Shown piece after piece: positions 9,475 through 14,055 of a DNA stretch of 64,000 nucleotides. The DNA comes from Denitrovibrio sp. (GTDB lineage: Bacteria; Chrysiogenota; Deferribacteres; Deferribacterales; Geovibrionaceae): positions 248,001-312,000 of the forward strand of contig PKTN01000005.1 in NCBI GenBank assembly GCA_002869185.1. Direction: 5' to 3'. Numbering within the stretch: position 1 is the stretch's first letter; the number at the start of each line of letters is the position of its first letter. The notes below the pieces were generated by a model. That model worked only from the letters and a program-made list of their open reading frames with translations, made no database searches and was not told the origin of the DNA. The translations under genes were made by a program, and so were the position numbers.

Positions 9475-11235
9475 ATGTTAAAATACTTTTTTATTCTATT
9501 TACGTTCAGTAGTTTATTATTTGCGACAATATCTTTTGCTCATGATTTTTCACATGACCACCCTACCACAATCAGTAAACCTAAGATTAACTTCAGTCAG
9601 GAAGAGCGAGACTATATTGAGAAAAAGAAAACCATCGTCATGTGCACAGACCCTAACTGGATGCCATATGAAAAGTTCGATAAGAATGGAGTATACACAG
9701 GTATTGCTGCTGATTATCACGATATAATTAGTCACTACACTGGATTGGACTATATCATTGTTCATACTAAAACTTGGCCAGAAACCTTAGCTCTCGCCAA
9801 AGCCGGAGATTGTGATCTACTCTCAATCCTAAATTCTACTCCAGAAAGGACTAAATATCTTAATTTTACTGATGAATTCATTGATTCACCTTCTATATTT
9901 GTTACTCGAGAGCGTGACAAGTTCATAAATGGTATCGATGATCTAAAAGGTAAAACACTCGCCATAGTTAAGGGTTACATGATAGATGAGCTAATAAAAG
10001 CAAACCACCCAAGCATAAAAAGAATATACGCAGATAACATCCCTGAAGCTCTAAAAATGGTAAGTGAAGGTAAAGCATTTGCGACAGCGGGGTCATTACT
10101 TGAAATGTCTTATAATATTAGTACATCAGGAATGCTTAACCTCAAAATAACTGGTGATGCAAAGTATGATTACAAGCTAAAAGTAGGTGTTAAGAAATCA
10201 GATCTTATTCTGTTGTCTATTATGCAAAAGACCCTGGCTAGCATCTCAAAAGTGCAACGTGGGCAAATTCTTAACAACTGGGTTTCAATCAACTATCAAC
10301 AAAATCAGAACCACAAGTACCTTTGGAAGATTATAATTATATTCTCAATCATTCTTGTAATAATAGGTGCTAAGAACATAGTCACAGCAAAATATAACAA
10401 TAAACTTATTAATCTAAATAAAAAGCTAGAGCTAAAAGTAGTCGAAGAAGCTACTAAGCGTATTGAAAACGAACGGTTACTGATGCAGCAATCTAAACAT
10501 GCTGCCATGGGAGATATGATTGGTGCAATAGCCCACCAGTGGAGACAGCCCCTAAATGCAGTAGGGCTTATTGTTCAGGACACAGAGGATGCATATGAAA
10601 CAGGAACTCTATCTAAAGATCTATTGAAAGATAATGTTGCAAAGACTATGGCACTCATTTTACAGATGTCTAACACTATAGATGACTTCAGTAATTTTTT
10701 TAAACCAAATAAGGACTTAGAGAATTTCCGTATTTGTATGATAATATCTGAAGTTTCTAATATGTTTCTTCCACAGATGAAAAGTCACGGCATAAAGCTA
10801 TTGCTAAGCTGTACAGACATGAAGCTTGATAATAACGTCTACAACTCAAATTCTAATTTTGATTGTTGCCACTCTGTAGTTGTTGAAGGTTATCCTAATG
10901 AGTTTAAGCATGTGGTACTTAACATACTTAAAAACGCTATGGACGCTTTTGATGAATCTACTAAAAAAGACAAGACTATAAATGTCTATATAGACATTGC
11001 AAACGATGGCTTTGCAGTATTAAAAATAAGTGACAATGGTGGCGGCATCAGGGAAGAAATTAAACATCGCATATTCGAACCTTACTTTACAACAAAGGCT
11101 GATAACAAAGGCGTTGGGATAGGTTTATACATGTCAAAACAGATCATACAAAACATGGGTGGCGATATGTGGTTTGAAAATATTGATGATGGTGCTGCAT
11201 TCTTCATAAAGCTAAAAGTTATTCCTAAGTTATAG
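9475..11235 (+). CDS. sensor histidine kinase with N-terminal periplasmic SBP_bac_3-type domain
   Basis: Signal peptide, CTDPNWMPYEKFDKNGVYTGIAADY (family 3 solute-binding), TM segment, HQWRQPLNAV H-box, HATPase motifs (DNGGGI, GVGIGLYMSK). Confidence 0.9.
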   Translation: MLKYFFILFTFSSLLFATISFAHDFSHDHPTTISKPKINFSQEERDYIEKKKTIVMCTDPNWMPYEKFDKNGVYTGIAADYHDIISHYTGLDYIIVHTKTWPETLALAKAGDCDLLSILNSTPERTKYLNFTDEFIDSPSIFVTRERDKFINGIDDLKGKTLAIVKGYMIDELIKANHPSIKRIYADNIPEALKMVSEGKAFATAGSLLEMSYNISTSGMLNLKITGDAKYDYKLKVGVKKSDLILLSIMQKTLASISKVQRGQILNNWVSINYQQNQNHKYLWKIIIIFSIILVIIGAKNIVTAKYNNKLINLNKKLELKVVEEATKRIENERLLMQQSKHAAMGDMIGAIAHQWRQPLNAVGLIVQDTEDAYETGTLSKDLLKDNVAKTMALILQMSNTIDDFSNFFKPNKDLENFRICMIISEVSNMFLPQMKSHGIKLLLSCTDMKLDNNVYNSNSNFDCCHSVVVEGYPNEFKHVVLNILKNAMDAFDESTKKDKTINVYIDIANDGFAVLKISDNGGGIREEIKHRIFEPYFTTKADNKGVGIGLYMSKQIIQNMGGDMWFENIDDGAAFFIKLKVIPKL

Positions 11236-11254: not shown

Positions 11255-11637
11255 AGAAAAGCCCTACAGTAAGAATAACTGAAGGGCCTTTCAAGAAAAC
11301 AATTCCGAATCTTCTTCTAAACCCATTGGACTATCTCCTGCTGCGGTTTATCGAGTCCATCACTTGAAGATCCTTTAAATCCTCCGATCTGAAATCTCTA
11401 AATCTAAAATCCTTTGAATCTCTGAATCTCTAAAATCTTTCGAAACTCTGAAACTGTGAAACTCTAAATCTGCGAGACATAGAAACTTGAACTCTCGGGT
11501 CTTTCTCTGAAATCCTGAGCCTTTGAAACTCTTCAACGAGTCTTTGATACTCTAGGGGATTCTGCGTCTACTGAGACTTTGATACTCTCGGGACTCTGCG
11601 ATATTTTGAAACTTTGAAACATTGGCACCGCAGCCAT
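11255..11637. repeat. non-coding repeat element, copy A
   Basis: 5' block AGAAAAGCCCTACAGTAAGAATAACTGAAGGGCCTTTC...TTCTTCTAAACCCATTGGACTATCTCCTGCTGCGG; degenerate GAAACTCT/GAATCTCT array; 3' block CCGCAGCCAT. Confidence 0.8.
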
Positions 11638-11817
11638 ACATTTAATATGGTTAGCCTATACTTATTTGCAATAGTTTTTTATTATTTTTCGAATATATTC
11701 TTCGACGCATAAGATAAAGGTCTCAGATGAGTTATTTAATGTCGAAAGAAAATTTTTCATTGGATTGCTGATTGGGATCTAAATGAGCAGAGAGGTCGCG
11801 ATTCAAGCCTATAAAGT

Positions 11818-12420
11818 AGAAAAGCCCCCTCAGTAAAAATAACCGAAGAGGCTTTTCAAAAAATTGACTCTAAGTCTTCTACTGAACCCATTAGACTATC
11901 TCCTGCTGCGGACTGGTTTCTGGAGCGGTCGGGTTCTGAAACTGAATCTGATCTGAATCTGTTCTGAAACTTGAAACTGAATCTGAGTCTAAATCTCTTT
12001 CGGAAACTTGAAACCGGATCTGAGTCTGAATCTCTTCGGAAACTGAAATCGGATCTGAGTCTAAATCTCTTTGGAAACTGAAACTGGATCTGAGTCTGAA
12101 TCTCTTCGGAAACTGAAACCGGATCTGAGTCTGAATCTCTTTGGAAACTGAAACTTGTTCTAAGTCTGAATCTCTTCGGAAACTGAAACTGGATCTGAGT
12201 CTGAATCTCTTCGGAAACTGAAATCGGATCTGAGTCTAAATCTCTTTGGAAACTGAAATCGGATCTGAGTCTAAATCTCTTTGGAAACTGAAACTAGGAT
12301 CTGAGTCTAAAATCTCGGTCGGAAACTGAAACTAGGATCTGAGTCTAAAATCTCTACTGGATCTAAATCGGAAACTGAATCGGGCCGAATCTCCTTTTCA
12401 AAAGATCTCTCCGCAGCCAT
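11818..12420. repeat. non-coding repeat element, copy B, containing tandem ~35-bp units
   Basis: 5' block closely matches copy A (AGAAAAGCCCCCTCAGTAAAAATAACCGAAGAGGCTTTTC...ACCCATTAGACTATCTCCTGCTGCGG); units such as GGATCTGAGTCTGAATCTCTTCGGAAACTGAAATC; 3' block CCGCAGCCAT. Confidence 0.88.
12016..12295. repeat. eight contiguous 35-bp tandem repeat units inside copy B
   Basis: Unit starts at 12016, 12051, 12086, 12121, 12156, 12191, 12226, 12261; less regular units flank both sides. Confidence 0.92.
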
Positions 12421-12546
12421 TTCTTTATATAAGACATGAACTAAAAAAATGCAACAACTAATTTTGGAATTCACGAAAATTACTACAATACATTTACTTA
12501 TCCTATTCGTTAACTTATAATCTTTAAAAAGTTTAATGGATGTAAA

Positions 12547-14055
12547 ATGTTTTCAAAAGTCTTTAGCGCACATGTTAATGGTGTTGATGCCGAAGTTGTC
12601 GAAGTTGAAACAGATATAGCCTCTATGGGATTACCTGCCTTCAACATGGTGGGTCTTGCTGACGCAGCTGTCAGAGAGAGCCGAGACCGTGTACGATCTG
12701 CGTTAAAAAATATAAACATGAATGTCTTTGCAAAACCTATCACCATAAACCTTGCTCCAGCTGACTTTAAAAAGGATGGAACTCATTTTGATCTACCTCT
12801 TGCGGTTGGTCTAGCGATATCAGGAGGCTTCATCTCCGGAGACTCTGACGACACTATATATGCTGGCGAGCTATCCTTAGATGGCAAGCTAAGAGGTGTT
12901 AGCGGTATACTACCTATAACAATCGCAGCCAAAGAAGCAGGATTTAAAAAGATAGTTTTACCTAGCCAAAATGCTGACGAGGCGGCTATCGTTGAAGGTA
13001 TAGATGTCTTCTCTATGACATCACTAGACGAAGCTCTCAGTTTTGCTAATGGCTCCTCAAGCTTTTCTCCTCATAAAGTTGACGCTATGGCTCTCTTTAG
13101 TAAGAACAGCTTTTACAAAGATGACTTTTCTGAAGTTAAAGGTCAACAAACGGCAAGACGCTGTGCTGAGATTGCGGCGGCTGGAATGCATAATTTACTT
13201 ATGATCGGTTCTCCAGGTAGCGGTAAGACTATGATCGCTCGCAGACTACCTAGTATTATGCCTGAGATGACCCTGTCGGAAGCCATCGAAACAACTAAAA
13301 TCCATTCTGTTGCTGGTTTTGTAAAATCTGCTAAAGACCTTAAAAGCTCAAGACCATTTTTTGCTCCCCACCACACAAGCAGCAATGTCTCTCTAATTGG
13401 TGGAACATCGAAAGCTGTCCCCGGTCAGGTAAGCTTGGCGACTAACGGAGTGCTCTTTTTGGACGAGCTATTGGAGTTCAACAGGAGCGTACTTGAGACC
13501 CTTAGGCAACCACTTGAAGATGGCGAAGTGACCATAGCAAGAGCTGCCAGAACTGTCACCTACCCTGCTAAGTTTATGCTAACAGCAGCGGCCAACCCAT
13601 GTCCATGTGGATATATGGGGGATAACAAAAAGCAGTGTTCATGCACCCAAGCACAAATCCAAAAATATAGGTCAAGACTTTCAGGTCCCCTGATGGACAG
13701 AATAGATCTTCACGTGGAGGTTCAGTCTGTCGACATATCTGACCTCTCTTCTATGAACGAAGGGGAGGCATCAGAGACAATAAGAGATAGGGTGAAGCTA
13801 GCTCATAATATCCAATTAGAGCGCTCAGGAACTTTCAACAGTAGACTGAGTGAAAAAGAATTAAAAAAATTCTGCAAGCTAGATGAGAAAGGGAAGAAGA
13901 TCATAGAGATGGCTTCTAAAAAATATTCTCTATCTGCAAGAGCTTATTCAAAAATATTAAAGACATCACGGACAATTGCAGACCTCGAAGGGGTAAAAGA
14001 TATCCAATCTAAACATCTACTAGAATCACTACAATACCGCATGCTTACAGACTGA
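12547..14055 (+). CDS. comM: YifB/ComM family Mg-chelatase-like AAA+ ATPase
   Basis: GLPAFNMVGLADAAVRESRDRVRSA, GSPGSGKTMIARRLPSIMP, AANPCPCGYMGD, LSGPLMDRIDLHVEV. Confidence 0.93.
   Translation: MFSKVFSAHVNGVDAEVVEVETDIASMGLPAFNMVGLADAAVRESRDRVRSALKNINMNVFAKPITINLAPADFKKDGTHFDLPLAVGLAISGGFISGDSDDTIYAGELSLDGKLRGVSGILPITIAAKEAGFKKIVLPSQNADEAAIVEGIDVFSMTSLDEALSFANGSSSFSPHKVDAMALFSKNSFYKDDFSEVKGQQTARRCAEIAAAGMHNLLMIGSPGSGKTMIARRLPSIMPEMTLSEAIETTKIHSVAGFVKSAKDLKSSRPFFAPHHTSSNVSLIGGTSKAVPGQVSLATNGVLFLDELLEFNRSVLETLRQPLEDGEVTIARAARTVTYPAKFMLTAAANPCPCGYMGDNKKQCSCTQAQIQKYRSRLSGPLMDRIDLHVEVQSVDISDLSSMNEGEASETIRDRVKLAHNIQLERSGTFNSRLSEKELKKFCKLDEKGKKIIEMASKKYSLSARAYSKILKTSRTIADLEGVKDIQSKHLLESLQYRMLTD

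Follow-up and report, generated by a model that had tools for sequence, protein, structure and literature searches.

What are the two repeat-filled stretches that lie between a sensor histidine kinase gene and comM in Denitrovibrio sp.? The window, that is, the whole stretch of DNA that was analysed, comprises 64,000 nucleotides (contig PKTN01000005.1, positions 248,001 to 312,000), and positions are given from its first letter. A sequence-only reading had described two elements, A (11255-11637) and B (11818-12420), with common borders and differing interior arrays, and both were found at these positions. Their shared "5' block" (11818-11911 versus 11255-11346) is 81% identical over 94 bp (E 4e-17), and the "3' block", CCGCAGCCAT, is present in each. 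That the stretch is free of open reading frames holds in the sense that no ORF of at least 80 aa overlaps either element. In the array of element B, a 35-bp unit is repeated 11.5 times (89% matches, score 566), and the units are not identical to one another. The array of element A is looser: its top self-match is at lag 8, as the degenerate 8-nt words of the earlier description would have it, with weaker lags at 35 and 26 in addition. Elsewhere in the genome, no good match to the 94-bp shared block and no match to the array of element B was found.

The orientation of the elements had to be reversed. On the minus strand, the supposed 5' block, with a terminator and a ribosome-site-like motif, forms the 3' end of a unit, and the supposed 3' block is its start (ATGGCTGCGG), directly after promoter boxes. 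In both elements, GGCTGCGG begins about 8 nt after the ATATTA/TATATA box on this strand. Each element thus looks, from its sequence signals, like a short minus-strand transcription unit, with the same order of parts in A and B: promoter boxes, the 5' strand of a stem (P1), an insert, CCGCAGC, AGGAG, a short ORF and a terminator. Together, GCTGCGG and CCGCAGC make up a single stem. The features are as follows.

9475-11235, plus strand: sensor histidine kinase; convergent neighbour in Denitrovibrio, outside the RNA
11255-11291, minus strand: element A, predicted intrinsic terminator; stem kept in all copies
11291-11326, minus strand: element A, putative micro-ORF MGLEEDSELFS*, predicted from sequence
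11335-11339, minus strand: element A, AGGAG, Shine-Dalgarno-like; invariant in nine copies
11340-11347, minus strand: element A, 3' strand of stem P1 (ACCGCAGC); pairs with 11627-11634
11348-11626, minus strand: element A, repeat array in the P1 loop, period 8 nt, weaker 26/35; distantly similar to the B array
11627-11634, minus strand: element A, 5' strand of stem P1 (GCTGCGGT); pairs with 11340-11347
11643-11671, minus strand: element A, promoter boxes TTGCAA (11666-11671), 17 nt, ATATTA (11643-11648); sequence signals
11818-11856, minus strand: element B, predicted intrinsic terminator, listed by the scan
11856-11891, minus strand: element B, putative micro-ORF MGSVEDLESIF*, predicted from sequence
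11900-11904, minus strand: element B, AGGAG, Shine-Dalgarno-like; invariant in nine copies
11905-11912, minus strand: element B, 3' strand of stem P1 (TCCGCAGC); pairs with 12410-12417
11913-12409, minus strand: element B, repeat array in the P1 loop, 35-nt unit with nested 6-nt period; orthologous to the array of genome G001, 80% identity
12410-12417, minus strand: element B, 5' strand of stem P1 (GCTGCGGA); pairs with 11905-11912, two compensatory pairs among four copies
12426-12454, minus strand: element B, promoter boxes TTGCAT (12449-12454), 17 nt, TATATA (12426-12431); boxes kept in nine copies
12547-14055, plus strand: comM (Mg-chelatase-like ATPase); divergent neighbour, outside the RNA

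The promoter, a TTGC box, 17 nt and an ATATTA-like box, is kept in all nine copies that we identified in two genera, with a spacer of variable sequence. The boxes match the sigma-70 consensus only weakly, and a scan with a generic consensus did not pick them up. At the other end, a hairpin followed by a T run is predicted in all copies, and that of element B was called on the minus strand by the scan. The terminator of element A may also end the convergent histidine kinase transcript. As the kinase is convergent and comM divergent, no gene follows in the same direction, which rules out an attenuator or riboswitch leader.

To which genomes does the unit belong? The two further Denitrovibrio genomes that were compared (G001 and G002, the latter probably D. 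acetiphilus) have one copy each, again between comM and the histidine kinase. We read the region upstream of comM in 12 genomes of the family. In the sister genus, an array-free homologue that BLAST had missed lies upstream of comM in five of five genomes, with the same promoter boxes, a leading hairpin, AGGAG...AATGGGT, a 10-codon ORF and a terminator. The stem at the P1 position is a different one there, CCCGAAC...GTTCGGG in four of the five, with G009 deviating. In the family's two remaining genera (L028-L031), no element was found at comM. A covariance model built on the 3' part recovered exactly these nine copies among 52 genomes of the phylum (E 8.7e-20 to 1.2e-12), with the best further hit at E 7e-4; outside the two genera, the element was not detected in these genomes. 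The six best hits at E 7e-4 or worse were inspected and rejected as homologues, being coding sequence, bare terminators or an unproven lookalike. The expectation that copies would exist in related genomes was therefore borne out, but not the notion of a dispersed modular element: the copies occupy one syntenic locus next to comM, flanked by the kinase and comM in the Denitrovibrio relatives, and are tandemly duplicated, as two adjacent copies, only in the present genome.

The lookalike itself (L040:1501-1586, in G051, of another family of the same phylum) scored E 7e-4 and shows AGAGAAAGTCCAGCAATGGG followed by a terminator, away from comM and among other neighbours. It is possibly a distant relative, or a chance match.

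Structured RNA had been suggested for these elements, with a conserved frame around an expandable core, and the P1 stem and the homologues agree with it. Among the four Denitrovibrio copies, eight pairs of P1 are kept with two compensatory changes: one gives GCTACGG/CCGTAGC in G001, and the other is at the eighth pair, in A versus B and G001, while G002 lacks the eighth pair. A short second helix, UCC/GGA, becomes UCU/AGA in B, adding one compensatory pair among the four. When the helix partners were slid against each other as a control, no compensatory pair remained in these copies. Since only four close and five more distant copies are available, the covariation rests on single changes. The predicted helices of the sister genus pair almost fully but show hardly any variation, and therefore speak neither for nor against the fold. 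A wobble test of the strand (18 G-U versus 2 A-C cells) favoured the minus strand, weakly so because the structures had been folded on that strand.

That the parts keep the same order in all nine copies, at a single syntenic site in both genera, speaks for a small-RNA gene, and the presence of a short RNA gene is the most secure component of our interpretation and very probable. The sequence itself shows the synteny, the conservation of the signals, the compensatory changes in the stem, the variation in length and an array that is orthologous and evolves slowly; transcription, folding in the cell, multivalent binding and translation are inferred. We favour, by a modest balance of probability, a tandem pair of small-RNA genes on the minus strand in which the closed loop would have turned into a multivalent domain of AGUUUC/YAG repeats and a micro-ORF is possible. 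One such gene would have been duplicated in tandem to give A and B, each copy having a promoter of its own, from which it would be read in the direction of the histidine kinase, and a terminator of its own at which transcription would stop. In the RNA, the stem GCUGCGG/CCGCAGC would enclose the repeat domain, and the ribosome-site-like AGGAG...AUGGGU would lie exposed between this stem and the terminator hairpin. The original RNA may have measured about 150-200 nt and had a loop of about 50-65 nt, a state still seen in the sister genus and in G002. Growth of the loop by tandem 6- or 8-nt words (AGUUUC, YAG), with 35-nt nesting in B, would then have taken place in two Denitrovibrio species. Held by its stem, the loop could be presented as a largely unstructured platform for a putative RNA-binding protein or partner RNA, and the copy number of the repeats would set its binding capacity. 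The AGGAG-AUG segment could be the start of a 10-11-aa peptide or a mimic of a ribosome site.

Is the peptide, then, the purpose of the RNA? In this alternative the transcript would be a tiny messenger for a peptide of 10-11 aa (MGxE...), and the stem and array would be a 5' untranslated region that tunes its translation. The elements had been called non-coding, which stands as far as ORFs of at least 80 aa are concerned and is uncertain beyond that, as a 10-11-codon ORF with a strong Shine-Dalgarno sequence is present in all nine homologues. In A and B, the gap between AGGAG and ATG is 8 nt, and 11 codons and a stop lead into the terminator hairpin and T run. AGGAG and AATGGGT are invariant in the nine copies, together with parts of the terminator, while the spacer in between varies in sequence and length, and in nine of nine the base of the terminator is where the frame ends. 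AGGAG-N5-9-ATG is also rare: both strands of the window hold nine such sites; two are those of A and B, and five begin frames of 68-427 codons. Against the messenger, the peptide is weakly conserved and differs between the genera beyond MG, variation by codon position (2/5/7 in one genus, 3/2/2 in the other) has no clear coding signature and is not decisive, and a motif of the AGGAG-ATG type arises in 4% of shuffles of the G002 RNA. We lean slightly against translation of the micro-ORF on this sequence evidence, and consider it rather unlikely that the peptide is what the RNA is for. A long reading frame through the array was rejected: the 145-codon open stretch on the minus strand of B has its only methionine at the micro-ORF, the G001 orthologue has no comparable frame, and most indels between B and G001 are not multiples of three.

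The small-RNA reading leaves the repeats to be accounted for. The insert measures 46 nt in G002, 216 nt in G001, 281 nt in A and 499 nt in B, and 54-66 nt in the sister genus. The core thus varies in length and unit as had been proposed, but the compact homologues show the array to be derived, having expanded within a smaller RNA gene that is conserved. Slippage is the usual explanation for repeat arrays in non-coding DNA, and here too the array could be neutral slippage tolerated in a permissive loop of an RNA whose conserved part is the functional one. Homologues that do without it, the wide length differences between copies and the different periods of A and B (8 nt in A, 6 nt nested in about 35 nt in both B and G001) fit such an account. 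The G001 insert, however, is the orthologue of that of B, co-linear over about 190 nt, with an alignment score of 138 against 23.5 ± 3.5 for shuffles (A versus B: 40 against 25 ± 3.6). Over these 190 nt the two arrays are 80% identical with gaps not counted and 74% with gaps counted, values that are somewhat inflated because repeat units align in several registers, shuffled arrays already reaching 70% of aligned columns and 52% with gaps. Fourfold-degenerate sites of the same species pair are saturated (31% identical in comM, 37% in the histidine kinase), so that the species are far apart, the region has not been recently exchanged, and the array is probably constrained. Moreover, a single 6-mer, AGTTTC, is the commonest in the arrays of A, B and G001. 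This comparison suggests that selection has probably maintained the array, or at the least that its rate of change is far below that of neutral sites, and we regard neutral slippage as quite unlikely.

What the constraint could serve is a more tentative matter. The constraint, the repeated words, the weak structure and the position in a closed loop suggest that the array could be a multivalent binding platform; the array-free G002 and sister genus count against it, and we hold it possible, with the balance tilted the other way. Its more specific form, a length-tunable scaffold in which a partner RNA or an RNA-binding protein is captured by the stem-closed AGUUUC/YAG array and the capacity shifts over evolutionary time as 35-nt units are gained or lost, is rather unlikely. 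The insert did not fold convincingly better than shuffles, and a long hairpin formed by the repeats was discarded (z -2.5 for the minus strand of B, -1.2 for A, -1.0 for G001, with the plus strand of G001 similar). A search for the repeat word as a target motif across the genome gave scattered two-mismatch hits and nothing clear. Of RNA-binding proteins, Hfq, including a two-domain form, and CsrA are encoded in all genomes of the family.

The least probable account, by far, is an artefact of the assembly or a DNA element, be it mobile, an origin-like iteron array or a set of repeats that bind protein: 35-bp direct repeats and two adjacent copies would suit it, but the copies are only these two in the genome and none lies at an unrelated site, their position is fixed in three species and the sister genus, what is conserved outside the array consists of signals for transcription and of RNA, viral contigs hold no match to the core pattern, the units differ, and an orthologous array occurs in an independent assembly.

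How does the small-RNA reading compare with known systems? Bacterial intergenic sRNAs have their own promoter and intrinsic terminator, and tandem sibling sRNAs exist. By its sequence signals, the predicted unit is of this broad kind, which it resembles in the short intergenic transcription unit, the terminator hairpin, the lineage restriction and the tandem duplication. It differs in a loop expanded 5-10 fold by tandem repeats that are not the same in the two siblings, and in a ribosome-site-like segment in every copy. SgrS-type dual-function sRNAs also carry a short ORF; the likeness is an sRNA with a possible short ORF and Shine-Dalgarno sequence, but the ORF here has just 10-11 codons, directly precedes the terminator and is weakly conserved. 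The compact members share the size range of 6S RNA (RF00013), which was rejected because genuine 6S RNA is found once, elsewhere, in 12 of 12 family genomes and has no match at the locus. The sponge RNAs CsrB, CsrC and RsmY are comparable, by analogy, in repeated short words whose number varies between relatives and in the idea of multivalent sequestration. CsrB and CsrC hold 22 and 14 GGA motifs (PMC11882849). The repeated word here is AGUUUC/YAG and not GGA, which occurs twice in the 513 nt of the minus-strand B insert region. Plus-strand GGA counts are 23 in B, 2 in A and 4 in G001 (ANGGA: 0, 0 and 1), and a CsrA sponge was rejected as the motif is conserved on neither strand. The RNA may work like a repeat-bearing sponge, yet, with the defining motif tested and not found conserved, not as one of the Csr kind.

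No match near the gathering threshold of any Rfam family was found at elements A and B, nor for the compact form of the sister genus, in line with the proposal of a new family. Literature searches returned no report of this RNA and no sRNA study for the Deferribacterota-type bacteria around Denitrovibrio, for which the locus offers a candidate RNA gene with exact coordinates. The compact relatives would represent the ancestral RNA, and the expanded ones mark where the array was inserted. If transcribed, the inserts of 46, 216, 281 and 499 nt would form a natural series for the gain of valency of a regulatory RNA by repeat expansion.

Three further observations were made. A protein with two Hfq domains, an unusual form on which a literature search found nothing, is encoded besides ordinary Hfq in 12 of 12 family genomes; here it lies outside the window (G000:C11:343866-344297, L071) and has 171 aa from the first ATG. 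In G002 (L072:276-784), a 252-nt direct repeat, its two copies 91% identical, is located between the element and the histidine kinase. Finally, the comM leader (12455-12546 of the window) has 76% identity to the G001 leader against a background of saturated fourfold sites, and this stretch is probably a conserved comM promoter or regulatory site.
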